A DNA stretch of 17,127 bases from Candidatus Fermentibacterales bacterium (lineage in GTDB: Bacteria > Fermentibacterota > Fermentibacteria > Fermentibacterales > JAFGKQ01): contig JAFGKQ010000055.1 of NCBI GenBank assembly GCA_016928495.1, forward strand, positions 1 through 17,127. The letters are read 5' to 3'. The translations under genes were made by a program, and so were the position numbers. Of the stretch, positions 2,392-16,868 are shown piece by piece. Numbering within the stretch: the stretch's first letter is position 1; each line of letters opens with the position of its first letter. The notes beneath the pieces were generated by a model, which was given only the letters and a program-made list of their open reading frames with translations, was not told the DNA's origin and did not search any database.

Positions 2392-3750
2392 TCCCCTGGA
2401 GGGAGCGATCCAGGGATCCAGCGGCACCTCCGGGCCGAAGTGAGCTTCCATCAGGCGGATCATCATCTCGTGATCGGCAGTTCCACCCGTCTCCCGGACA
2501 GAGTGCATGGACAGAATGGGATTCCCGACATCTATCGAGGCCGCCCCCAGGGCCGAGGAGAGGATGGGGCCGATGGTCGAGCCGCAGGGCCTGTCGTTCC
2601 TCATCACGAGATCCTGGACCGGGACGCCGGCAACCCCCGCGCACTGTCTGAGGTATCCGGCGGTTGCGGCCGTGGTGCTGTAGCGCATCGATGCGTTCAC
2701 CTTGAGCACGGGGCCCGAGTTGAGAACGGGTCTGTGCGAGGAGTCGTGCCTGTCGCCGAAGCCGGGATGCAGGGCATGAGCGGCATCGGCCGACAGGATC
2801 ATGCTTCGGGAGAGGGCGACGAAGAGGTCCTGCCTCGAGCCCGTCATGCCCTGCTCCTTCCCTGTGGTCGGCACCGCCAGTCTCTCCAGGATCGATGAGA
2901 GGAAGTTGGAGAAGGCGCCGGCGCTCGTCCGGGAGCCAACCTCTTCGCTGTCGAAGAGGGCGAGGACACAGGTATGCAGTCCGGGCGGACAGGACTCGAT
3001 GGCCCTGAGGCCGCAGTGGCACATTGCGAGATTGTCGAGCCTCCCGGAGAGCAGGAGCTCGCCGCAGCGCCCTCCCGTCGCCGCCGGCTGGACATCGTAG
3101 AGGTCCGCGGCGAAGGCCGCTACTCTCTCGGGGTCCACTCCCGCGCTCTCCGCGATCATGCCCGTAAGGTCGGGATCCTCCTGCCCGACTCCGCAGACCG
3201 GTAGCATGTTGTCCTCGCGGTTGAACTTGAAGCCCTCCTCGTTGACCTGGCGGTCCAGGTGGATTGCCAGGCTGGGTATCCTGCAGAGGGCTCCCGTCGA
3301 GAAGAGAAGCTCCTGCATGCCCGGCCCGCCCCCGGAGTCCGGGGCACGGAGCCACAGCCTTCCCGCGAGTCCCAGGTCACGGTCGAACCAGGTGGCCAGG
3401 ATCGGGCTTCCGTAGACCTCCGCCCTCAGCACGCTGTAGCCGGAGAGAGCCTGCGCCGCCTTCGGTTTCAGACGCAGGCAGGGGAAGTCGGTGTGAGCCG
3501 CGATGACCCTGAAGCCCGTCCTTGAAGGCGGAAGCTCACCCGCAAGGCACGCCACGATGGAGGTTCCTCCGCGCGTGCAGAACAGGCGCATGCCGGGCTC
3601 GACGGTCCAGACCTCCCTCTCCGAGAGCTCCTCGAACCCGGCGCTGATCAGATACGACCTGGCGAGCTCGACTGCGTGGGCGGGGGTGGGGCTGCCGTCC
3701 AGGAAGTCGAGCACTGAAGCCCTGGGCCTACCGGATGCGGACACGCTCAT
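2374..3750 (-). CDS. apeB: M18 family zinc aminopeptidase
   Basis: Cytosolic dimetal aminopeptidase, 458 residues, the usual M18 length. Expected ligands and motifs are present in order: AAHTDFPCLRLKP (H86), TWFDRDLGLAGR (121-131), IHLDRQVNEEGFKFN (163-177), RLDN (D239), LFDSEEVGS (E269 and E270), SADAAHALHP (D322), GSTIGPI (390-396) and LSMHSVRE (H416). M18 enzymes trim N-terminal residues from peptides and typically form large tetrahedral oligomers. ATG 3750 is chosen because GGGGAGAAGGGACG lies just upstream and the protein aligns with the family from there; the in-frame upstream extension to 3900 lies wholly inside the activase gene. It starts 23 nt before the activase stop on the same strand, so it is probably translationally coupled. 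The symbol follows the bacterial family name. Confidence 0.95.
   Translation of the reverse strand: MSVSASGRPRASVLDFLDGSPTPAHAVELARSYLISAGFEELSEREVWTVEPGMRLFCTRGGTSIVACLAGELPPSRTGFRVIAAHTDFPCLRLKPKAAQALSGYSVLRAEVYGSPILATWFDRDLGLAGRLWLRAPDSGGGPGMQELLFSTGALCRIPSLAIHLDRQVNEEGFKFNREDNMLPVCGVGQEDPDLTGMIAESAGVDPERVAAFAADLYDVQPAATGGRCGELLLSGRLDNLAMCHCGLRAIESCPPGLHTCVLALFDSEEVGSRTSAGAFSNFLSSILERLAVPTTGKEQGMTGSRQDLFVALSRSMILSADAAHALHPGFGDRHDSSHRPVLNSGPVLKVNASMRYSTTAATAGYLRQCAGVAGVPVQDLVMRNDRPCGSTIGPILSSALGAASIDVGNPILSMHSVRETGGTADHEMMIRLMEAHFGPEVPLDPWIAPSRGSGQVE
2388..2421 (+). terminator. Stem-loop at the end of the ABC permease gene
   Basis: GATCCCCTGGA (2390-2400) pairs with TCCAGGGATC (2409-2418) across an 8-nt loop with one bulged C. 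The stem can be extended by CTG/CAG (2388-2390 with 2419-2421) through a further bulge. It begins at the TGA of the permease and lies inside the C-terminal coding region of the convergent M18 gene. No U-run follows, so it may be a factor-dependent or 3'-end-stabilising structure rather than a classic intrinsic terminator. Confidence 0.4.
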
Positions 3751-6700
3751 CGTCCCTTCTCCCCTCACGGCCCGCGACCTCACTCTCGAGCCGGAGGCGG
3801 CTCCGGGCCTGTTCTCCCGCAATCTCGTCGGGAATGCTCTGCCTGACCTGATACATGAAGGCCTGGAGCCTGGTGTCGGTATCCGTATCCTCCTGACCAT
3901 CGAAGGCGAGATTCAGCCAGGGAAGCCCGGGATGGTCCCTCCTGAGCCTCTTGGAGATGGCCGTGACGATGGTCCCGGGAAGGCATGTGAACGGAAAGAC
4001 GTTGACCGCTCCGTCGATCTCGCCGAGGAGCGCGAGGGGCGCCCCGATGCAGAGTATGGCTTCGCCCCCGACGTTCTCGGTCATGTAGGGCGCGGCAGCC
4101 TCGAGGATCCTGGCGGCATCGGGTTCCCTCCGGTCCGCGAGCAGTCCCCTGAAGGGCCTCTCCACGCTGCGCCTGACCTGCTTCATCAGCAGGTGCTTGA
4201 GGGCGCTGCCCGCCACTGCCAGCGGTTTCCTGCGGGCAAGGGACCGCATCATGAAGGAGTGGTTCACGAAGTCGAACCACTCGCAGACCGGGGTGAAGAT
4301 GACCTCTCCGCCGAGCGCCTCTATGCGGTCTATGGTCCGCGCGTTCGCGTATGGGTCGTTCCGCACGTAGATCTCGCCGAAGAGCAGTATTCGCGGCCTG
4401 CGCGTGTCCACTGTGTCGATCGCGAGGAACCTGCCCCCAGCTCTGGACAGAGCTGCCCTGACTCCCCTGCCGGTTCCGAGCGCTTCGCTCATCTCGTCCA
4501 GGCTGTTCTCGTAGGCTTCCGATGCGCGGCCCTTCTCCAGCTCGTAGGGTCTGGTCCTCAGAAGTGCGCGCATCAGGACGTCTGCGATGGCTGCGGACCT
4601 GAGGAGGTCGAGCTGGAACCGGGGAGTCGAGAGGCAGGAGACGCTGCCGTAGGAGTTCGCGGAGCTGGCGGTGATGATGGGCACGTCTGCGTATCCCGCC
4701 CTGTCGAGGATCAGGCGATGGAGATGGCAGTACTGACCGAACCTGCACGGACCCGATGCCGTGCCCATGAAGAAGGCGCAGCTCGAAGGAGGGTTCTGTC
4801 GCAGGATGGAGAGCATGTTGCCGGAAGTGATTATGGCAGGGTAGCACTCTTTGCCCGTGGTGACCGACCTGCCCAGCGCGACCGTCGCGGATGTCGTCGG
4901 TGGCATCACCTCGACGTCCAGTCCGTAGCGTCGGGCGCACGCCGCTACGAGGCGGGAGCCTTCCCCCAACTGAGGAACCCATATCCGACGGCCTTCGAGG
5001 GAATCCGGTGCGGAGCGTCCACCAGTGGCTCGCGACCCGGCGCCCGGAGAGGCAGACCCGCTGGCCGCACGCCCCCTGATGCTGTCCAGGAATGCCTCGC
5101 ACCTCGTGATGACTCCGGCATCGGCGGCATGCTCGTCTATCTCGATGGTGAGGAATGGCTTCTCTCCCATGGAGCTCTGGAAGAACTGGTGTATGAACGA
5201 ATCAGGACCGCAACCGAAGTTGGTCAGGTAGACGGCATGCAGTCGCTCGTCGCCGGCTATTGCCAGAGCCCCGGCCAGGATCCGGAGCCCATAGTGCCAG
5301 TACATGTTCCCGTGCTCGAGGGCAGCCTTCTCGCAGGGGATGTCGAGGAAGCCGAGAGGGATCACGTTGGCCCCCAGCCGGGAGAGCTTTCTCGCCAGAT
5401 CGACGTTCACCCCGGGGTCGCAGCCGTTGTAGGGCCTGCTCACGAGCACCAGGTTGGGATGCCCCGGATCCGAGGCCAGAGAGCTCAGGATGTCCCTTCC
5501 GGTCCGGGCCACTCTCATCGTGTACGAGCGCTGGGCCTCGAATGCGATCCTGGCCGCCCTGGCTGCCGTCTTCGCGTCGGCGCCAAGCTCGACGGCCATG
5601 GCTATCAGGCTCGAGAACCTCTCGGAGACGGGAAGCGTGAAGTCCACCACGGGTCTCAGGATCGACACGGCTGGAGCACTCGTCTGCAGGGCGTCTGACT
5701 GCAGAGCGGCTTCTATCATGTACGGAGATGCCTGAACGTAGGGGCAGTTGTACGACTCTGTCGCTCCGCGGTGAGGAGGCGACCTCAGGATCGAGGGAAG
5801 CAGGATGTGGTCGACCTCGCCGCCTCGCATCAGGTCCATGACATGACCGTGTGCGATCTTGACGGGGAAGCATGTCTCGGCAGCCACGCTCTCGACTCCG
5901 TCGTGAACCAGTTTCGAGCTGGTCGTTCCCGACAGCCTGACCCCCGCCCCGATGAGCCTGAGGAGTGTTTCGAAGAAGGGCAGCAGCTCCCAGAACCAGA
6001 GGGCCCTCGGGATGCCGATCGTAAGACCGAGCGGAGGCGCATCTGCCCCGGCCGGGATCACGCCCTCCGCTCTCGCGTCCCGGAAAGCCGAAAGCAGCAG
6101 CTCCTCGAACACGGGGAAGTAGTCGGTTCCGCGCTGCTCGACAGCCATGCGCGAGTCTCCCGTGCTCGCTGTCCTCTCGTACTTCTCGCAGCGGCTGCCG
6201 TAGAACAGGCTCCTGCCGTCATCCAGATCGACCCTGTGAATCTCGCACATGTTGCTGCAGGACCGGCAGACGAACGTGCTGAGGCTGTAGCCGCTCTCGG
6301 AGAGCGAGAATCCCCTGAAACTGCTGGGTCTGCCCACGCAGCGGTCCCTGGAAAGCAATGCCGCGCCTATCGCTCCGGTCACGTCATGGTTCGGGGGAAC
6401 GGCTACCGGCCTGCCCAGTATCGACTCGAACGCCGCGCGCACCCCCTCGTTCCAGGCAGTCCCGCCCTGGAAGAGGATCCTGTTGCCCGTTTTCCTCTTG
6501 CCTACGACCCTGCCGAGGTAGTTCCTCGCGATCGAGTAGCAGAGCCCGGCAATGATGTTGTCCACGCTCTCGCCCCTCGCCATGTGGAGCACCACATCGG
6601 TCTCCATGAAGACGGTGCACCTCTCGCCGAGGTGTGTCGGAGAGGCGGCTGCAAGCGCGACAGAGCCGAAGTCCTCGATCTCTACGCCAAGGCGCTCCGC

Positions 6701-8101
6701 CTGCTCCTCCAGGAAGGAGCCGGTTCCTGCAGCACAGACCTTGTTCATCTCGAAGTCCACTACCCTGCCCTTCTCGATGGAGATGAACTTGGAATCCTGG
6801 CCGCCGATCTCGAACACGGTATCCACGTCCGGATCGGCCTCGACAGCAGCTCTGGCCTGGGCCGTGATCTCGTTGCTCACGACGTCGGCGCCAACGAAGT
6901 CCCCGGTCATGTACCTTCCCGAGCCGGTGGTGCAGACGCCGAGGACCCTCGGGTTCGGGCCCAGGTCTGACTCGACGAGTCTGAGGCCCGTCTTGACGGC
7001 CTCGATGGGACGACCGGAGGTCCGGAGATACTGACGCGAGAGGAGCCTGCCGCCGGCTCCTATTGCTGCGAGGTTCGTGCTGATCGAGCCGACGTCTATC
7101 CCCAAAAACACGCCCTCTTCCTCTGGTGGCTCTGCTCCCGGACAGGCGGCCGTGCTGCACTCCAGCGCCGGAGAGGCGGGGCACGCCAGCGAGAGAGCCG
7201 GAAGAGCGGAGACCGGGGGCCCGCCCTCTACCCTTGCCGGTATCTCGCTGAGCAGGGACGTGAAACCGGCATCCAGAACGCAGCGGGAGCGCGGGTCGTG
7301 AGAGATGGCAGCCCCTGCGGCTACGAGGCAGTCGAAGTGCTCGGGTATCAGTATCTCAGTGCCGTCCTCCGCCAGAACGTCCTGGAATGCCCTGACCATT
7401 CCGGCGTTGGCGGCCACTCCTCCCACGAAGGCAACCGGTGCCCTGAACTCCTTGCCGGATGCGATGGTGCTCTTGAAGTTCCTTGCCACCGCGAAGCAGA
7501 GCCCGGCCACTACATCTTCGACCGGGGCTCCTGTCTGCTGAAGGTGTATCATGTCGGACTTCGCGAACACGCTGCAGCGGCCGGCAATGCGGGGTGGGCT
7601 GGTGCATCGCAGCGCGGCGTCGCCCAGGTCCTCGGTCTCCATGCCGAGCCTCTGCGCCTGCTGGTCCAGGAAGGCCCCGGTGCCCGCGGCACAGATCGAG
7701 TTCATCGAGAAGTCATCGAATACCGGGCCGTCGGGCGAGTCCCTGAACAGCAGCAGCTTGGCATCCTGCCCGCCCATCTCTATGACCGAGCGCACGGACG
7801 GGAGCATCATGCTGACCGCAGCCGACAGGGCGACTATCTCGTTCACCGGCTCGATCCCGAGGGCGGATGCTAGAAGGCCCGACGCCGAGCCGGTCACCGA
7901 GCATTTCCTCCCCCTCCACCATGCACCGGAGTCGCAGTCGGCCCGCACGATCTCCGAAAGGGCCGCGAGCGGCCTTCCGTTGTGGCGAAGGTACCAGGAG
8001 GATGCGATCCTGCCGTCCTGGACCACGGAAACCTTGGTGCTGACGGAGCCCAGGTCTATTCCGATGCGTGCCGCGGAGGCGGCTTCGATCTCTTCTTTCA
8101 A
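3728..8101 (-). CDS. Giant acyl-CoA dehydratase activase fusion (two BadF/HgdC-type ATPase modules + DUF2229 + HgdB-like region)
   Basis: 1457 residues. Module 1 (about 12-268) and module 2 (about 332-588) are each BadF/BadG/BcrA/BcrD ATPases (ASKHA fold), with phosphate loops GIDLGSVSTK and GIDVGSISTN. Each keeps both Fe-S ligand cysteines: NSICAAGTG (C137) with GRCSVF (C176), and NKVCAAGTG (C456) with ERCTVF (C495). A Cys4 knot follows (C612, C615, C619, C638), then a DUF2229-type region (about 692-930; AETCFPVKIAHGH, C744) and a region resembling the 2-hydroxyacyl-CoA dehydratase D component (C894, C964, C1086, C1119, C1125). Activases of this family use ATP to fire low-potential electrons into a dehydratase. 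The substrate of these single-chain versions is not established. The start is TTG 8101; an AAGGA lies 12 nt upstream. An 88-bp gap separates it from the lipoprotein gene; I see only a TCGGGAG direct repeat in it. Confidence 0.93.
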   Translation of the reverse strand: MKEEIEAASAARIGIDLGSVSTKVSVVQDGRIASSWYLRHNGRPLAALSEIVRADCDSGAWWRGRKCSVTGSASGLLASALGIEPVNEIVALSAAVSMMLPSVRSVIEMGGQDAKLLLFRDSPDGPVFDDFSMNSICAAGTGAFLDQQAQRLGMETEDLGDAALRCTSPPRIAGRCSVFAKSDMIHLQQTGAPVEDVVAGLCFAVARNFKSTIASGKEFRAPVAFVGGVAANAGMVRAFQDVLAEDGTEILIPEHFDCLVAAGAAISHDPRSRCVLDAGFTSLLSEIPARVEGGPPVSALPALSLACPASPALECSTAACPGAEPPEEEGVFLGIDVGSISTNLAAIGAGGRLLSRQYLRTSGRPIEAVKTGLRLVESDLGPNPRVLGVCTTGSGRYMTGDFVGADVVSNEITAQARAAVEADPDVDTVFEIGGQDSKFISIEKGRVVDFEMNKVCAAGTGSFLEEQAERLGVEIEDFGSVALAAASPTHLGERCTVFMETDVVLHMARGESVDNIIAGLCYSIARNYLGRVVGKRKTGNRILFQGGTAWNEGVRAAFESILGRPVAVPPNHDVTGAIGAALLSRDRCVGRPSSFRGFSLSESGYSLSTFVCRSCSNMCEIHRVDLDDGRSLFYGSRCEKYERTASTGDSRMAVEQRGTDYFPVFEELLLSAFRDARAEGVIPAGADAPPLGLTIGIPRALWFWELLPFFETLLRLIGAGVRLSGTTSSKLVHDGVESVAAETCFPVKIAHGHVMDLMRGGEVDHILLPSILRSPPHRGATESYNCPYVQASPYMIEAALQSDALQTSAPAVSILRPVVDFTLPVSERFSSLIAMAVELGADAKTAARAARIAFEAQRSYTMRVARTGRDILSSLASDPGHPNLVLVSRPYNGCDPGVNVDLARKLSRLGANVIPLGFLDIPCEKAALEHGNMYWHYGLRILAGALAIAGDERLHAVYLTNFGCGPDSFIHQFFQSSMGEKPFLTIEIDEHAADAGVITRCEAFLDSIRGRAASGSASPGAGSRATGGRSAPDSLEGRRIWVPQLGEGSRLVAACARRYGLDVEVMPPTTSATVALGRSVTTGKECYPAIITSGNMLSILRQNPPSSCAFFMGTASGPCRFGQYCHLHRLILDRAGYADVPIITASSANSYGSVSCLSTPRFQLDLLRSAAIADVLMRALLRTRPYELEKGRASEAYENSLDEMSEALGTGRGVRAALSRAGGRFLAIDTVDTRRPRILLFGEIYVRNDPYANARTIDRIEALGGEVIFTPVCEWFDFVNHSFMMRSLARRKPLAVAGSALKHLLMKQVRRSVERPFRGLLADRREPDAARILEAAAPYMTENVGGEAILCIGAPLALLGEIDGAVNVFPFTCLPGTIVTAISKRLRRDHPGLPWLNLAFDGQEDTDTDTRLQAFMYQVRQSIPDEIAGEQARSRLRLESEVAGREGRRDDERVRIR

Positions 8102-8722: not shown

Positions 8723-10864
8723 TTGAGCGATCCGGTCTACTCAGAATCGCATGGCCCGCGTGGTCCTGCGCTGGCATGCGGGCTCCTTGCCGCCCTGCTG
8801 CTCACTGCAGGCGAGTCGGCAGCCTACGTCGGACCGGGAGCCGGGATAGGAGTAGCCACATCCTTCCTCGTCTTCCTCAACGCCCTGCTGATCGGCCTGC
8901 TCTCGGTCCTGCTCTGGCCCTTCAGGCTGCTCGTCAGAGGCCTGAAGCGCTCCAGGCTTCCGAAAAGGCCCCGCTGCAGAAGGGTGGTTGTTCTCGGACT
9001 CGATGGCTTCTCTCCCTCTGTCGTCCGGGAGCTGCTTTCCCAGGGAGCGCTCCCGAACATCTCCAGGCTTCTTGACAGCGGCTGTCAGCTCTCCGAGCTC
9101 CGCACGACGCGTCCCGGTGTCTCCCCCGTGGCCTGGTCATCGTTCCAGACCGGCACCAACCCGGGAAAGCACGGAGTATTCGACTTCCTTACCCCCGACA
9201 AGCGCCTGCTGGTTCCGAAGCTGTCATCGGTCGAGGTCAAGACCCCTCCCCCACGCCGTCTGCGAATCGGTCCCCTGAGCCTGACCAGACGCAGCAACGC
9301 CGTGGTCAGGGGCCTTCGTGGCGGCAGGCCGTTCTGGAGCTACCTCGCGCGCTACGCGATCAGGTCGGCCGTCATAAGGGTCCCCATCACCTTCCCTCCC
9401 GAAGAGCTGGACGGAGTTCTCCTCAGCGGCATGTGCGTACCGGACCTGAGGGGAACCCAGGGCAGCTTCACGGCCATGTCGCCGGGCTGGGCCGGCAGGA
9501 AGCTCACCGGGGGCCTCGCCTGCGATCTGACCGAGGTAGGGGGAAAGGGCAAACGCGGAGAAAGGTGCTGGAGGTGCGCCATACCGGGCCCCGAGCTGCC
9601 CGGGGAGGGCCTTGCCTCCTCTGCCGCTCTGACGCTCCGTCATCGCGGCGGGACCGACTGGAGCCTCAGCCTCGAAGGAAGGCGAGGCTGGAAGAAGAAG
9701 CTGACCGCCGGCAGTCTCTCCGGCTGGCTTCCGGTGAGCTTCCGGATGCCCGGAGCGCCTGCCCGTGCCCGGAAGATGAGGTCGATCGCGAGGTTCTGCC
9801 TCAGAGAGTGCGGAGAGCCCGGCACCGGGGACCCGATCCTGTACGCCACGGCGCTCCACATCGACCCGGCCTCTCCGGTTCTCCCCATCAGCCACCCGCC
9901 CCTCTACTCACGCTACCTCGCAAGGCTCACGGGAGGCTTCGCGACCCTCGGCCTGGCGGAGGATACCTGGGCGCTCAACGAGGGCATCACCACGCAGAGC
10001 ACCTTCCTGGAGCAGGCATGGTCCATCTTCGATGAGAGGAAGATCATGCTGGACGATGCGCTCAGAGCGGTGAAGAGGGGGCTGGTCGTATGCGTGTTCG
10101 ATACCTCCGACAGGATCCAGCACATGTTCTGGCGCGAGGGCCTCGGTGAAGGGGCTCCGGTCAGGGAGATGTACCGAAGGATGGACTCGCTGATAGGAGA
10201 GGTAGCCTCTCGCCTCACCGCCAGGGACGTCCTGCTCGTGATGTCAGATCATGCCTTCACTTCCTTCGACACCTGCATCGATCTCAACGCCTGGCTGGCG
10301 TCGGAGGGCTACCTTGCCCGATCTCCCGAAGGCAGCATAGAGTGGAGCGCAACGAGGGCCTACTCCATGGGTATGGCCGGCATATTCCTGAACCTCCAGG
10401 GCAGGGAATCCGCGGGCATGGTCAGCCGCTCCGAGGCGGATGACCTCCTGGAGGAGATAGCGTTCCGCCTCAGGGAGTTGCGGGACCCCACGACGGGCGA
10501 GAGGGTGATGCTCTCGGTCCTGAGGTCTACCGAGGCATACGATGGACCCTACTGCGAGGATGCCCCCGACCTGCTCTTCGGTACCGCAGAGGGCTACAGA
10601 GCGGGATGGGGATGCGTCACGGGAGAGGTCGGAGACAGGGTGATCTATCCGAACGAGAGGCACTGGACGGGCGATCATAGCCACGAGCCGTCGCTGGTCC
10701 CGGGCATCCTGATCTCGAGCCGGCCGCTGGAGAAGGACAGCCCCGCGATCTGGGACATCGGTCCCACAGTGCTCGACCTGCTCGGGCTGGACGTTCCGTC
10801 GCACATGGACGGATCCTCGCTCTGTCCGGAGGCTGCAGCAGCGGGAAAGGGCCGTGAGCAATGA
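8723..10864 (+). CDS. Membrane-anchored alkaline-phosphatase-superfamily protein (type I phosphodiesterase/nucleotide pyrophosphatase-like)
   Basis: 713 residues. The N terminus has a signal-like segment (about 14-34, ending GESAA), the motif AYVGPGAG (34-41), a membrane helix (about 42-66), and a strongly basic stretch (67-87). The catalytic domain follows: metal ligand in LGLDGF (D94), nucleophile position S134 in VSPVAW, then TG-NPGKHGVFDF, D463/H467 in SDRIQHMFW, D509/H510 in MSDHAF, and H652 in TGDHSH. This set matches two-metal phosphoesterases of the AP superfamily; the substrate is unknown. About 160 residues (about 245-405) with beta-rich character separate the two catalytic halves. 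The start is TTG 8723, with AGAGG 9 nt upstream and no ATG that keeps the signal segment. It overlaps the next, paralogous gene by 4 nt (ATGA). Confidence 0.88.
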   Translation: MSDPVYSESHGPRGPALACGLLAALLLTAGESAAYVGPGAGIGVATSFLVFLNALLIGLLSVLLWPFRLLVRGLKRSRLPKRPRCRRVVVLGLDGFSPSVVRELLSQGALPNISRLLDSGCQLSELRTTRPGVSPVAWSSFQTGTNPGKHGVFDFLTPDKRLLVPKLSSVEVKTPPPRRLRIGPLSLTRRSNAVVRGLRGGRPFWSYLARYAIRSAVIRVPITFPPEELDGVLLSGMCVPDLRGTQGSFTAMSPGWAGRKLTGGLACDLTEVGGKGKRGERCWRCAIPGPELPGEGLASSAALTLRHRGGTDWSLSLEGRRGWKKKLTAGSLSGWLPVSFRMPGAPARARKMRSIARFCLRECGEPGTGDPILYATALHIDPASPVLPISHPPLYSRYLARLTGGFATLGLAEDTWALNEGITTQSTFLEQAWSIFDERKIMLDDALRAVKRGLVVCVFDTSDRIQHMFWREGLGEGAPVREMYRRMDSLIGEVASRLTARDVLLVMSDHAFTSFDTCIDLNAWLASEGYLARSPEGSIEWSATRAYSMGMAGIFLNLQGRESAGMVSRSEADDLLEEIAFRLRELRDPTTGERVMLSVLRSTEAYDGPYCEDAPDLLFGTAEGYRAGWGCVTGEVGDRVIYPNERHWTGDHSHEPSLVPGILISSRPLEKDSPAIWDIGPTVLDLLGLDVPSHMDGSSLCPEAAAAGKGREQ

Positions 10865-12822
10865 GGAGGAGGGAGTTCCTGAAGCTGTCCGCCCTGGGCT
10901 CAGCCGGCTTGCTGATGTCCAGGCTCGGCTGCGCCGGCGCGGGCCGATACTCGGGACCCACGAGGGTGATCGCCATGGGAGTGGACGGCATGGATCCGGG
11001 GCTGGTCGAGCGGTACGTTGCCGCCGGCCTGATGCCGAACACCGCCAGGCTCCTGGAGGGACGGCCGCCCGTGCGACTGGGAACCAGCAACCCGCCTCAG
11101 AGCCCGGTGGCCTGGTCGGACTTCATAACCGGCGCCGATGCCTCGGTTCACGGGATATTCGACTTCATCCACAGGGATCCCGCCACGATGAGGCCCTTCC
11201 TGTCCACCTCCAGGGTGGACGCGCCATCCAGGTCGATCGGGATCGGCGACCACAGGTTCCCGCTCTCGGGAGGAAGAGCAGTGCTTCTCCGCCGGGGTGA
11301 GCCCTTCTGGAAGCCACTCGAGGAGGCCGGAGTGCCCGTCGCGCTCATCAAGCTGCCCGTTGACTTCCCTCCCCTGAAGGGCGATGCGGCCATACTCTCC
11401 GGGCTCGGGACACCCGACATGCGGGGAAGCCAGGGAAGCTTCACCTACTTCACGGACGACCCGCTCATGATCAGTGACGACACTTCCGGAGGACTGGTCA
11501 CCGCCGTCAGGGACAACGGCAACGGCTGCTACGACTGCAGGATCACCGGCCCCCCGAACACGATGCTGGCCGACAGCCCCCTGACGCAGATCGAGTTCAG
11601 GGTGTGGCGAGACAGGGACGCCGCTGCGGTGAGAATAGACCTGCCCTCGGGCAAGCTCGTGCTGGCAGAGGGCGAGTGGAGCTCCTGGCAGCCTCTCTCC
11701 TTCCCTCTTCTAGCCGGCGTCTCCTCGGCACGCGCGATCGCGAGGTTCCATCTCGCCTCGGTGAACCCCCATCTGGGGCTCTATGTCTCTCCCCTCAACA
11801 TCGATCCTCTCGACCCGGCCCTGCCGATCTCCCAGCCCGACGGCTACAGCGCGAGGCTGGCCCGGGAGCTCGGCCGGTTCTATACCCAGGGCTTCCCGGA
11901 GGATACGAAGGCTCTGTCGAGGGGCGTTCTGGATGACGAGGGATACCTCGAGCAGGCCCGCATAGTCCTGAGAGAGAGGATGAAGCTCTGGGAGCGCTCT
12001 CTGCGAGCGCATTCGACCGGGTTCCTGTTCTTCTACTTCTCCTCGCTCGATCTCAACGTCCACATGTTCTACAGGACCATCGACGAGCGGAGCCCGCTCC
12101 ACGGAAGGACCGACCTGGCCCTCTTCGGAGGCGTGATCGGCGAGCTCTACTCAGAAGTGGACCGGGCCATCGGCATGGCGATGGAGTGCGCCGACGAGCA
12201 CACCGCGATCGCGGTCTTCTCGGACCATGGCTTCGCGCCCTTCCGCCGCAGCTTCAACCTCAATAGCTGGCTGGCCGCCGAGGGCTACGCCCGCATCGGG
12301 TCCCCCTTCAGCCGTGACCGGGACATGTTCGAGGCGCTCGACTGGTCGGGCACCGCTGCCTATGGGCTGGGGCTGAACGCGCTGTACCTGAACATCCGGG
12401 GACGCGAGAAGGACGGCACGATCGAGGCCGGCCCCGAAGCGGAGAGGGTCCTTCGGGACATCGCTCAGCGACTCGAGGGCGCGGTGGACCCGCAGTCGGG
12501 CCTGCGAATCGTAGACCGTCTGTACCTGGCCAGCGAGATCTACGGCGGCCCTCTGCCCGATCATGCGCCCGATGCCATCGTTGGCTATGCCAGCGGGTTC
12601 AGGTCGTCATGGGAGACTGCCCTCGGCAGCTTCCCGGATGCCGTGATCGAGGACAACCTGGACCCCTGGAGCGGCACCCACTGCGTCTCACCTTCGAACG
12701 TGCCGGGCACACTCATCTCGAGCGTCCCGCTCGGCGAGCATGCCGGGAGAGGCCTATCTCTCCGGGACGTCGGCGTGCTGCTCGCGTCCGGCTTCGACCC
12801 CGGCGCAGGCATCTGGGCCTGA
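10861..12822 (+). CDS. Tat-exported alkaline-phosphatase-superfamily protein, paralogue of the upstream gene
   Basis: 653 residues. It begins with a twin-arginine signal (RRREFLKLSALG, residues 2-13, then a hydrophobic run to about 20), so it should be exported folded to the periplasm. C24 follows but with Arg at -3, so a lipobox is not convincing. The catalytic set parallels the upstream protein: D42 (GVDGMDP), S81 (QSPVAWSDF), VHGIFDF (96-102), D397/H401 (LDLNVHMFY), D455/H456 (SDHGF) and H607 (SGTHC). Shared blocks such as P(D)LRGSQGSFT, NIDPLDPALPIS and NSWLAAEGY show that the two genes are tandem duplicates that have diverged in sequence and in export signal. The substrate is unknown; phosphodiester or phosphomonoester hydrolysis is inferred from the family. 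Confidence 0.9.
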   Translation: MRRREFLKLSALGSAGLLMSRLGCAGAGRYSGPTRVIAMGVDGMDPGLVERYVAAGLMPNTARLLEGRPPVRLGTSNPPQSPVAWSDFITGADASVHGIFDFIHRDPATMRPFLSTSRVDAPSRSIGIGDHRFPLSGGRAVLLRRGEPFWKPLEEAGVPVALIKLPVDFPPLKGDAAILSGLGTPDMRGSQGSFTYFTDDPLMISDDTSGGLVTAVRDNGNGCYDCRITGPPNTMLADSPLTQIEFRVWRDRDAAAVRIDLPSGKLVLAEGEWSSWQPLSFPLLAGVSSARAIARFHLASVNPHLGLYVSPLNIDPLDPALPISQPDGYSARLARELGRFYTQGFPEDTKALSRGVLDDEGYLEQARIVLRERMKLWERSLRAHSTGFLFFYFSSLDLNVHMFYRTIDERSPLHGRTDLALFGGVIGELYSEVDRAIGMAMECADEHTAIAVFSDHGFAPFRRSFNLNSWLAAEGYARIGSPFSRDRDMFEALDWSGTAAYGLGLNALYLNIRGREKDGTIEAGPEAERVLRDIAQRLEGAVDPQSGLRIVDRLYLASEIYGGPLPDHAPDAIVGYASGFRSSWETALGSFPDAVIEDNLDPWSGTHCVSPSNVPGTLISSVPLGEHAGRGLSLRDVGVLLASGFDPGAGIWA

Positions 12823-12830
12823 GGGGAACC

Positions 12831-13655
12831 ATGGACGCCACGGCCGCCGCGGCAGCTTCGGTCCTGAGATCGCTGTTCGATCTCCTCCTCTACCCTACAG
12901 CCCCTCTCTCACCCACTCTCGCCCTGTGCCTGGTGTCGGTGCTGTCGGGCCTCGCCATGATAGCTCTCTTCAGGCTCGCCTCCGACCAGGAGGCGATAGC
13001 CTCGGTTCGCCGACGCATGGGCGCCGAGGCCGTGGGCATGCTCCTCTACCTTGGAGACCCCTCCACGGTGCTCAGGAAGGGCTGGAGGCTCATCTCGCTC
13101 AACTTCGTCTACCTCTATCACCTGATCGGCCCCATGCTCGTCATGGCTCTGCCTTTGCTCCTCCTGATCGCGCAGATCGGGGCCAGGTACTCCCTCTCAC
13201 CGCCGGCGGCGGGCGATACGGCTGTGATCACGCTGAGCCTGTCAGACCCGATTGCCGGTCTTCCACCGGTGGTCGAGACGTCTTCCGGTCTTCGCTACAT
13301 ACCGCCCGTCGTGCTGGTGAGGTCGGGTGCCGAAGCGAGCTTCCGCGTCGAGGCCCAGCCATCCGGGGAGCGAGGCGTCGTGGTGGCGGGAGTGACGCTC
13401 CCCAGTCTCCCCAGTCCCGTCTCACCCGCCTTCCGCGTCGAGTCGTCGGGAGCCACCAGCTCGGGGCTGGAGGCCCTGATGAACCCATCGCTGGAGCATC
13501 TGCCCGACGGATCGCCCATCAGCGCGGCCAGCTACCAGCTCGAGCGCTCAGGATTCGAGATCGGGCTCGGTCGCTGGTCCTGGATCCCGGTCTTCCTCCT
13601 GTTCTCTCTCCTCGGGGCACTGGTCGGCGGGCTGTTGCTGAAGGTGAGAGTCTGA
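12831..13655 (+). CDS. Three-TM membrane protein resembling bacterial DUF106/EMC3-like (YidC/Oxa1 superfamily) proteins, with periplasmic domain
   Basis: 274 residues; the start is ATG 12831 with GAGGGG four bases upstream, 8 bp after the previous stop. Topology: a membrane helix at about 29-47, a basic cytoplasmic segment (48-92) containing SDQEAI and RRRMGAE, a strong helix (about 97-117), a beta-rich domain (about 118-247), and a last helix (250-270) ending KVRV. The helix / 'S.Q..I....r..A' / helical hairpin / 'P.l....P.lll..q...ry' layout resembles, from memory, a bacterial membrane family distantly related to DUF106/EMC3. That group belongs to the Oxa1/YidC insertase superfamily. No insertase activity is shown for it here. 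It is the third gene of the phosphatase operon and may organise or insert those enzymes (inference). Confidence 0.78.
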   Translation: MDATAAAAASVLRSLFDLLLYPTAPLSPTLALCLVSVLSGLAMIALFRLASDQEAIASVRRRMGAEAVGMLLYLGDPSTVLRKGWRLISLNFVYLYHLIGPMLVMALPLLLLIAQIGARYSLSPPAAGDTAVITLSLSDPIAGLPPVVETSSGLRYIPPVVLVRSGAEASFRVEAQPSGERGVVVAGVTLPSLPSPVSPAFRVESSGATSSGLEALMNPSLEHLPDGSPISAASYQLERSGFEIGLGRWSWIPVFLLFSLLGALVGGLLLKVRV

Positions 13656-14103: not shown

Positions 14104-14120
14104 CAATGGAGAGGATTGAC

Positions 14121-15086
14121 TTGGCTGACGCCCCCATAAGAGTCACTGCCCTGACCAAGAGGTATCCGGTGAGGATGGGGCTTGGCTCCGTCGCCGCGCT
14201 GGACTCCGTTTCCTTCGAGCTTCGCGAGGGCGAGATCATGGGCTTCCTCGGTCCGAACGGAGCCGGCAAGACCACTGCCATCAAGTGCGTGCTCGGGCTG
14301 CTCAAGCCGTCTTCGGGAAGGGTGCGGCTCTGGGGGTTACCCCCGGCCCATCCGTCTGTCCGCAGGCGGCTCGGCTACGTACCGGAGAGCCCGGACTACG
14401 ACGACGCCTTCACGCCTCTGGAGCTTCTCTCCCTCTTTGCCAGGATGAGAAGGCTGCCGGGCGGCAGATGCGACTGGCTCGATCTGCTTGCAAGGGTGGG
14501 GCTGAGCGCCTGGGAGACGACACGTATCAGGAAGTTCTCGAAGGGGATGAGGCAGAGGGTGAGCCTGGCGCTTGCCCTGCAGTCCAGGCCGAGCCTGCTC
14601 GTCCTCGACGAGCCGACCGGCGGACTCGATCCCCTCGCCAGATCCGAGTTCCGCTCCATCATACTGGAGGAGAGCAGCAGCAGGGGCGCCACCGTGTTCC
14701 TGTCCTCCCATCTCCTCTCGGAGGTCGAGACCATCTGCACCAGGGCTCTGATACTGGACCACGGATCCCTCGTGAGGCAGGGCTCCATGCGCGAGCTGCT
14801 GCGTGAGGAGAACCAGTGGCGCCTCGAGTTCGCCGGGGAGGCGCCGGCTTCCCTTGCCGGGAGGGTCTCTGCCCTTCCGGTCACCTCGACGCCCGACGAG
14901 GCCGCGGGATCCGGGGAGTACCGCGAGTTGCGGACCGCTGGCGAGGACCTGCAGGCCTGCATAGACGAGCTGAGGTCTGCCGGTGCGCGGATAACCAGGG
15001 TCGAGCCCGTCTATGGGCGCCTCGAGGACGTGTTCCTCTCTGCAACGGCCGGGCAGCGAGAGGAAGAGCCGGAGCGGGATCAGTGA
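14121..15086 (+). CDS. ABC-2-type transporter ATP-binding protein (cassette gene 1)
   Basis: Cytoplasmic ATPase of 321 residues. Motifs: Walker A GPNGAGKTT (44-52), the YVPESPD form of the Q-loop region (86-92), signature FSKGMRQR (139-146), Walker B LLVLDEP (159-165) with GGLDP, and switch histidine SSHLL (H197). All catalytic positions are intact, so it should hydrolyse ATP. The C-terminal 100 residues are the usual variable extension. TTG 14121 is preferred because GAGAGG sits six bases upstream (14109-14114), giving MADAPIRVTALTKRYP. ATG 14106 is in frame but lacks a ribosome-binding site and directly follows a hairpin. Its stop overlaps the permease GTG by 4 nt. It is similar to, but clearly distinct from, the ATPase at 608. 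Confidence 0.93.
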   Translation: MADAPIRVTALTKRYPVRMGLGSVAALDSVSFELREGEIMGFLGPNGAGKTTAIKCVLGLLKPSSGRVRLWGLPPAHPSVRRRLGYVPESPDYDDAFTPLELLSLFARMRRLPGGRCDWLDLLARVGLSAWETTRIRKFSKGMRQRVSLALALQSRPSLLVLDEPTGGLDPLARSEFRSIILEESSSRGATVFLSSHLLSEVETICTRALILDHGSLVRQGSMRELLREENQWRLEFAGEAPASLAGRVSALPVTSTPDEAAGSGEYRELRTAGEDLQACIDELRSAGARITRVEPVYGRLEDVFLSATAGQREEEPERDQ

Positions 15087-15838
15087 GAACGATCCGGGCC
15101 TTCGCCGACATGACGATGAAGATGCTGCTCCGGCGCAGGACGATCTACGGCATCTCCATCGTGATCCTGCTTGCCCTTCTGGGCATATCGAGGGTGCCCT
15201 CCTTCGATGTGGGCAACGAAGGGCGCTTCATTCTCGACTTCGGGATGTTCGGGCTCGAGATAGGGGCCCTGCTCCTGGCGATCGGACTCGCCGCCAACCT
15301 CTATCCCAGGGACAGGGAGAGCAGGGTCCTGCTTCCCCTGCTTGCCGTGCCTCTCTCGAGGGCCCACTACCTGCTCGGACGCTTCGCGGGAGCCGCCCTG
15401 GTCCAGATGGCCTCGCTGGTAGCAGGCTGTCTCGGGCTCGTTGCCGTGCTCGCCATCAACGGCTACGCAGTCCCTCCAGCCCTGATACCGGCTGCTCTGC
15501 TTCTGGTCGTCGAGGGCTGGTTCCTGCTGTCCGTCGTCTTCTTCTTCGGCTTCTGGACCTCTCCCCCGCTCAACGCTCCTCTGACCGTGCTGCTCTTCAT
15601 CATCTCACAGATGAGCGTCAGGGAGTTCGTGAGCCTGCTTCCTGCGGCCTCCGGGGCGATGAAGGTGATCAGGCTCCTGCTGCCGCACATGGACGCCTTC
15701 CACATAAAGGACCCTATCGCACACGGGGAGACCGTGCCCCTCCTGTATTTCGCGGTTGCCGCCTTCTATGGCCTGTGCTACACCGCTTTCATCCTCACCG
15801 TCGGACTCGCGGTCTTCAGGAGCAGGGACCTGAGATGA
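15083..15838 (+). CDS. ABC-2-type transporter permease (cassette gene 2)
   Basis: Membrane partner of the preceding ATPase, 251 residues with about six hydrophobic segments: roughly 20-38, 50-72, 101-124, 130-158, 166-184 and 217-243. The YPRDRESRVLLPLLAVPLSRAHYLLGR stretch (about 74-100) is the ABC-2 coupling signature (acidic residue, then P-SR...G). The start is GTG 15083, overlapping the ATPase TGA, with GGAG 8 nt upstream. The gene ends in an ATGA overlap with the His-rich gene. ABC-2 pairs of this type include exporters and the NosFY copper-site maturation pair; sequence alone does not choose between these. Confidence 0.88.
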   Translation: MRTIRAFADMTMKMLLRRRTIYGISIVILLALLGISRVPSFDVGNEGRFILDFGMFGLEIGALLLAIGLAANLYPRDRESRVLLPLLAVPLSRAHYLLGRFAGAALVQMASLVAGCLGLVAVLAINGYAVPPALIPAALLLVVEGWFLLSVVFFFGFWTSPPLNAPLTVLLFIISQMSVREFVSLLPAASGAMKVIRLLLPHMDAFHIKDPIAHGETVPLLYFAVAAFYGLCYTAFILTVGLAVFRSRDLR

Positions 15839-16215
15839 GGCCGGCAGGAGCGAGCTTTCTCCGCGCTCTCTCGGCGGCCCTCTTCCTGATCGCCTGCGCC
15901 CTGCCCGGGGACTACGACATCGAGGACGTGGCGCCCACATCCCATCTGGGTGAGCCCTGCGAGCACGATCATGGGCACGGGGAGCTGCAGGAGGCCGGGC
16001 ACGAGCACCACGACGACGCGGAACGCCAGGAGTCGACCCAGACCGGCATGCATGTCCACGAGGCGGGGCAGAGGAACCACGGGACCGAGTGGTTCTTCAA
16101 CCAGCCCTGGGCGTCCCCCTTCATATGGCCCAAGATGCTCAGGGACAGCCTCGTCCTCGCAGCCCTGGCCGCCGTGATCGCGCTCGTGAGCCGTCGCCTG
16201 ACCAGGAGAGCATGA
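15835..16215 (+). CDS. His-rich predicted lipoprotein with C-terminal membrane helix (cassette gene 3)
   Basis: 126 residues. The N terminus has a basic n-region, hydrophobic ALSAALFLIA and a canonical lipobox LIAC (C21). Residues 37-82 are acidic and hold ten histidines (37, 44, 46, 48, 56, 58, 59, 73, 75, 82), including EHDHGHG and GHEHHDD. A WFFNQPWASPFIWPK block (86-100) leads into a membrane helix (about 104-119) ending RRLTRRA, so the C terminus should be cytoplasmic. If lipidated, the protein would be anchored at both ends with the His loop outside. The loop suggests divalent metal binding (inference). ATG 15835 and the end at 16215 both lie in 4-nt overlaps with neighbours, which supports it as a real gene. 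No named family recognised. Confidence 0.82.
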   Translation: MRPAGASFLRALSAALFLIACALPGDYDIEDVAPTSHLGEPCEHDHGHGELQEAGHEHHDDAERQESTQTGMHVHEAGQRNHGTEWFFNQPWASPFIWPKMLRDSLVLAALAAVIALVSRRLTRRA

Positions 16216-16868
16216 GAACCCACCAGCTCCTCATCCTCTCCGTGCTCTTCCTTCTTGCGGCAGTCTTCTCCGGTACCGCGACCATCAGTCATGACCTGTC
16301 GGGCCAGGAGCAGGCCGCCAGGGAGTCCGCCTGCTCAGGCTTTGCCGCGGCAAGACAGGCGCTTGCCGATCTGCTCTACATCCAGCTCGACCACTATCAT
16401 CACATCTGGATGTACCAGGGGCACTCCTGGACCGAGGCGACCGACTACCTGCCGCAGATCTGGCTGATCGTGAAGCTCGATCCGGGCTTCGCCGACGTCT
16501 ACGCGGACGGGGCCTACCATCTTGCCGTCAACCTGGACGAGCCGGAGCGCGGAATGGAGCTGCTGGAGACGGGCTTGAGGAACATCCCTGACAGCGAGGA
16601 GCTGATCTGGCAGTATGCCTTCCTCAACCACGAGATCGAGGAAGGCTCGCCCGAGGCGGTCATTTCGGGGTGTCTCGACCTGTTCCGGCTCTCACGCCGC
16701 AGGGACGGGCTCGAGGAGCCGATGCTCGAGAAGAACGCCTGCATACTGATCGCGGACGCTCTGGAAGAGTGTACCTTGCGCGCAAACGCGCCCAGGCTCG
16801 CTCAGAGGTACGACAGGAGGGGCGACCTGCTCAGATGGCTGGAGATCGGAAGGGAGCTGGCTCCCTGA
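16212..16868 (+). CDS. Membrane-anchored TPR-like protein with HYHH motif (cassette gene 4)
   Basis: 218 residues. An N-terminal hydrophobic segment (5-22) anchors or exports it; no lipobox is seen. The rest is helical and repeat-like: about 75-105 (LPQIWLIVKLDPGFADVYADGAYHLA), 110-140 (GMELLETGLRNIPDSEELIWQYAFL) and 148-185 have the A-helix/B-helix spacing and the 'LDP.f...Y..GA..L' phrase of tetratricopeptide-type proteins. A histidine cluster HYHH (61-64) with H71 precedes the repeats. The start is ATG 16212 with AGGAGAGC directly upstream, overlapping the His-rich gene stop by 4 nt. TPR-like domains are scaffolds, so it probably presents or recruits a partner at the outer face of the transporter (inference). 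Confidence 0.82.
   Translation: MRTHQLLILSVLFLLAAVFSGTATISHDLSGQEQAARESACSGFAAARQALADLLYIQLDHYHHIWMYQGHSWTEATDYLPQIWLIVKLDPGFADVYADGAYHLAVNLDEPERGMELLETGLRNIPDSEELIWQYAFLNHEIEEGSPEAVISGCLDLFRLSRRRDGLEEPMLEKNACILIADALEECTLRANAPRLAQRYDRRGDLLRWLEIGRELAP

Follow-up and report, generated by a model that had tools for sequence, protein, structure and literature searches.

A four-gene cassette from Candidatus Fermentibacterales encodes a genuine conserved membrane machine, with its gene set kept across the whole order, and we consider it probable that this machine is the PilG-PilH-PilI transporter known from type IV pilus biogenesis, extended by a lineage-specific fourth subunit. On sequence evidence, genes 1, 2 and 4 of the cassette are homologues of PilH (the ATPase), PilI (the ABC-2 permease) and PilG (the anchored TPR protein). 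Gene 3 is a new part of this otherwise described system, an order-wide fourth subunit. What some type IV pili need an ABC transporter for is a question that has stood since 1998, and PilGHI is, to our knowledge, usually regarded as a myxobacterial speciality.

In Myxococcus xanthus, the products of the operon pilA-pilG-pilH-pilI are pilin and an ABC exporter together with its accessory factor (PMC3546991), and deletion of pilGHI leads to the loss of pilus-driven motility (PMC5544727). PilG, PilH and PilI were reported as indispensable for pilin translocation across the inner membrane of M. xanthus (Wu et al. 1998, as cited in PMC3724824). The claim that PilGHI moves pilin goes back to this one 1998 study, and a 2018 survey holds that supporting data for it are lacking. 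In the literature pilGHI is also reported to be unlinked to the pilus locus in some species, such that a position in the pilus locus is typical and not defining.

Cassette architecture and conservation within the order

The window, that is the whole stretch of DNA analysed (17,127 nucleotides), carries all four genes on the plus strand. Gene 1 (14,121-15,086), a PilH-type ABC ATPase (Pfam ABC_tran, E 1e-27), has a TTG start and an in-frame alternative ATG at 14,106. It is followed by gene 2 (15,083-15,838, GTG start), a PilI-type ABC-2 permease with a NosY-like fold, by gene 3 (15,835-16,215, ATG start), a probable lipoprotein that is rich in His and has a membrane helix at its C-terminus, and by gene 4 (16,212-16,868, ATG start), a PilG-type TPR protein with an N-terminal anchor. 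A sequence-only reading of this DNA had described such a cassette of ATPase, permease, His-rich lipoprotein and TPR protein joined by three 4-nt overlaps, and our analysis confirmed all four open reading frames as well as the junctions, which read GTGA, ATGA and ATGA and overlap by 4 nt each. That reading went on to derive a fixed stoichiometry from the overlaps; what they suggest is coupled translation, from which stoichiometry does not follow. Elsewhere the window holds a second ABC ATPase/ABC-2 permease pair of another subfamily (512-2391, the ATPase being 34% identical to gene 1) and, on the minus strand at 3728-8101, a 1457-residue protein which by eye resembles a fused 2-hydroxyacyl-CoA dehydratase activator.

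In an order-wide survey we searched 60 and then 385 genomes, 42 of which belong to the order, the window's own included. Gene 4 was present in 41 of these 42 genomes and gene 3 in 39, with truncation at a contig edge explaining two of the three misses. Among the 35 order genomes of the detailed set (window included), 34 keep the order permease-gene 3-gene 4, with the ATPase gene, or its 3' part at the least, in front, and in the remaining one the contig starts at gene 3. The earlier expectation that the four genes stay together was therefore borne out. Most cassette junctions across these genomes also measure -4 nt, and the arrangement is not a product of chance. The ATPase orthologues of the order are about 55% identical, and the permease is the most conserved part of the cassette, with a mean column identity of 78% in the order alignment. 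This unusually high conservation of the permease bears on another explanation, in which the first two genes form a common ABC-2 exporter of drugs or small molecules and the genes transcribed behind them are unrelated to it. The nearest named NCBIfam family of the ATPase is indeed DrrA, at 189 bits, but this is well under the cut-off of 312, and with the four-gene set kept across the order and three of its genes across phyla, the synteny makes such an exporter very improbable.

Homology to PilG, PilH and PilI

Outside the order, the search of 385 genomes returned relatives of gene 4 in other phyla that were weaker, yet clear. We fetched 41 such loci, selected by gene-4 similarity alone, and an ABC-2 permease lay within 1.2 kb of the gene-4 homologue in 36 of them; the scattering of homologues mostly away from ABC-2 genes, which the sequence-only reading had named as an argument against one machine, is not the pattern seen. 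A recognisable pilus gene was found within 5 kb in 17 of the 41 loci, a number to be lowered to about 13-14 on a stricter count, because some of the pilus seeds were drawn from the 41 loci themselves and three of the 17 loci rest on one prepilin-like ORF on the opposite strand. Two of the loci (L101 and L102) hold a whole pilus operon in the order pilT-pilC-prepilin-ATPase-permease-TPR gene-pilD-pilM-pilN-pilO-pilQ, and three others (L109, L225 and L231) have operons resembling it.

The link to the named genes comes from Pyxidicoccus fallax, which is closely related to M. xanthus. A pattern scan of the named genomes with gene 4 gave no match, and named pilA loci were found by probing with a pilin-core peptide written from general knowledge of deltaproteobacterial PilA, which served as a probe only. 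In the P. fallax locus a prepilin gene comes first, and behind it a gene-4 homologue (E 7.5e-5), an ATPase corresponding to PilH (243 bits against the cassette-ATPase profile) and a permease (61 bits) directly abut, in the same gene order as MXAN_5783-5780, pilA-pilG-pilH-pilI. Profiles built from pilus-operon sequences pointed back to the cassette: in the window's own genome the PilG profile had gene 4 as its top match (E 7e-19, runner-up 1.5e-4) and the PilI profile had gene 2 (E 9e-43, runner-up 1.8e-4). Alignment of profiles with hhalign gave 99.0% (E 3e-18) for gene 4 against pilus-operon PilG, and 99.9% (E 4e-37) over the full length for the permease against pilus-operon PilI. In a permease tree, the cassette fell within the PilI radiation, next to the pilus-linked loci L107 and L183 with weak support, and apart from NosY; where NosY and the other ABC-2 permease fall is not trusted, as both are long branches. 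For the ATPase, the adjacency to the PilI and PilG genes carries the weight in its assignment to PilH, since ABC ATPases are widespread. The pilus-operon loci, the Pyxidicoccus gene order and the profile matches in the own genome are together what identifies genes 1, 2 and 4 as homologues of PilH, PilI and PilG. The earlier statement that no described system has this exact set thus does not hold for three of the four genes, which are described in M. xanthus.

The window's own genome also encodes PilM with a PilN-like tail, PilO, PilQ, PilC, and PilB- and PilT-like ATPases. PilM of the order (L245:2966-4759, and L246-L249) has about 600 residues and its C-terminal part weakly matches PilN, which suggests a PilM-PilN fusion. 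The PilM family PF11104 matched 356 of the 385 genomes, among them controls including E. coli and B. subtilis, and, across phyla, is not specific enough for counting genomes with pili, so that no co-occurrence statistic was drawn from it.

With the same pilus-seed search, no pilus genes were found near the cassette in 283 kb of order loci, window included, and we infer the pilus role in the Candidatus Fermentibacterales organism by homology, since the cassette is not next to pilus genes there. This separation leaves room for a reuse of the PilGHI-family member in the order, where it could export a lipid, a glycan or a surface protein tied to the phosphodiesterase-family genes and the membrane protein encoded upstream. 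In the window itself the region upstream of the cassette (8723-13655) holds two genes of the PF01663 phosphodiesterase family, along with one for a membrane protein that no Pfam family matches, and many cassette loci of the order have relatives of these genes on their upstream side. Many distant relatives likewise lack pilus neighbours: no pilus gene lies within 5 kb in 24 of the 41 distant loci, and the transporter family may therefore serve other cargo too. The upstream genes vary, however, with a sulfate adenylyltransferase and other genes intervening, and some loci are without the PF01663 and membrane-protein genes; also, in the own genome the pilus machine is complete and only one homologue of PilG is encoded. 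We regard a different cargo as unlikely, and the PilGHI pilus transporter as the better account of the cassette.

Permease fold, gene 4 structure and the metal question

The permease model (pLDDT 80) had NosY as its best structural match (Z 20, 231 residues, 3.9 A), and a sequence comparison with the PDB likewise matched the permease to NosY alone (E 2.4e-5). The comparison with NosFY that had been made from the sequence is thus right as regards the fold and the motor; the permease is, however, much closer to PilI, with the PilI profile giving 146 bits for the cassette permease and 46 for NosY. Gene 4 consists of a single helix at the N-terminus, followed by a soluble domain that is helical throughout (AlphaFold2 pLDDT 90), of which the Foldseek matches are TPR proteins, at low significance; no Pfam or NCBIfam family was found for it above cut-off. 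Its HYHH motif (residues 61-64) is a local version of the helix motif of the family, D-x-Y-x-H, which reads QYYG in the pilus-operon PilG.

The His-rich loop of gene 3 (residues 37-82, 15,943-16,080 on the plus strand) does contain 10 His in about 46 residues, as had been counted, but it is the variable part of this protein and not its conserved part, its length differing and its His number ranging from 5 to 17 among the order orthologues. Because of this variability, and because HYHH is the local form of a family motif, the link to metals that had been drawn from the two features is not directly supported.

A metal-related scheme could nevertheless be considered in the form of a system that resembles NosDFY and brings a metal site in the periplasm to maturity, gene 3 being a NosL-like His-rich metal donor and gene 4 standing in NosD's place. 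NosD is a beta-helix protein. The scheme would agree with NosY as the nearest solved permease by sequence and by fold, with the His-rich character of gene 3 in nearly all orthologues and with the adjacency of gene 3 paralogues to ArsP_1 and DUF1980 proteins. It conflicts with the bit scores that set the permease nearer to PilI, with gene 4 being an all-helical TPR protein homologous to PilG and not NosD-like, and with those same paralogues next to ArsP_1 lacking the His loop; nor did a non-systematic look at the neighbours in the window reveal a metalloenzyme gene. The system of Pseudomonas stutzeri, NosDFY(L), resembles the cassette in its ABC-2 permease fold and in combining an ABC motor with a lipoprotein and an extracytoplasmic partner, and differs from it in the permease, in a partner that is NosD and not a TPR protein, and in its nitrous oxide reductase genes, none of which were seen here. 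Taken as a whole, we find a NosDFY-like function of the cassette decidedly doubtful.

Gene 3, the added His-rich probable lipoprotein

Gene 3 encodes 126 residues, with His at positions 37, 44, 46, 48, 56, 58, 59, 73, 75 and 82, and its hydropathy profile has hydrophobic segments at about 3-25 and 100-123 flanking the His loop. In the order alignment, Cys21 is near-invariant and a conserved core, HxH..G.RNHGT.WFFNQPWA..FIWGK..RD, immediately precedes the C-terminal helix. No Pfam or NCBIfam match was found for the protein, and the search of 385 genomes gave no confident relatives of it outside the order. A weak lone match outside the order, in genome G144, was rejected as its frame holds five stops, and no gene-3 relative was seen in the gap between the permease and TPR genes of locus L234.

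Two genomes of another lineage (L092 and L093) encode a short His-rich membrane protein between the permease and PilG, in the same position as gene 3. This protein resembles gene 3 in its hydrophobic N-terminus, its His-rich linker and a Pro-Trp motif before a C-terminal hydrophobic helix, and hhalign sets its ILNHPWN on FFNQPWA of gene 3 with a probability of 44%; unlike gene 3, it has no lipobox cysteine that we could see. The similarity is suggestive only of a relationship. His-rich inserts also occur inside the PilG homologues of other phyla (L097, L107, L183, L223 and L101), in most cases between helices one and two of the TPR region. Together with the L092/L093 linkers, these inserts indicate that a His-rich stretch recurs near the PilGHI-type transporter. 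His-rich windows were found in 6/47 PilG homologues and 10/321 neighbouring ORFs (Fisher p 0.009), a weak test since the cut-off was picked after seeing the sequences, with some control ORFs possibly spurious, biasing against the claim of enrichment.

Second copies of gene 3, all without the His loop, are found in four order genomes (L103:6132-6509, L104:5409-5750, L105:5403-5744 and L106:900-1259). They directly precede an ArsP_1 (PF03773) permease and a DUF1980 protein, families which were tested in L105 only, and the gene 3 core domain thus accompanies two different transporter types. The core domain can therefore exist without the His loop. Metal handling by gene 3 is possible; a fuller version, in which gene 3 would be a metal-binding subunit that makes pilus biogenesis metal-responsive and has its core domain in common with ArsP_1-type permease operons, seems to us unlikely.

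Proposed mechanism and relation to Myxococcus PilGHI

By homology, two ATPases and two permeases would form a NosFY-like membrane motor, a likeness that is apt for the motor given that NosY is the best match of the permease in structure and the only one in PDB sequence. ATP hydrolysis would drive a movement of the permease that carries along the TPR domain of PilG on the extracytoplasmic side, and the moving TPR domain could help new pilin to get across the inner membrane, or out of it, and on to the assembly machine. More tentatively, gene 3 may sit in the same membrane, anchored through an N-terminal lipid and a C-terminal helix; its conserved juxtamembrane WFFNQPWA segment would bind the permease or PilG, and its flexible His-rich stretch might act as a tether or as a metal- or pH-responsive element.

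In PilG-PilH-PilI of M. xanthus (MXAN_5782-5780) as in the cassette, the genes for the ATPase, the ABC-2 permease and the TPR protein with its membrane anchor stand together and are homologous, core motifs are shared, and a pilus machine is encoded in the same genome. The gene order is ATPase-permease-TPR in the cassette and TPR-ATPase-permease in M. xanthus, and the cassette, unlike PilGHI of M. xanthus, has the extra His-rich lipoprotein gene between the permease and the TPR gene. It also lies outside the pilus locus, unlike in Myxococcus, a pilus-locus position being found in other phyla.

The PilG-PilH-PilI three-gene unit is thus found in many phyla, often within pilus operons and with NosY as its best structural template, and one lineage adds to it a fourth, predicted lipid-anchored subunit. 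The mechanism of PilGHI is thereby open to structure prediction and genetics beyond Myxococcus.
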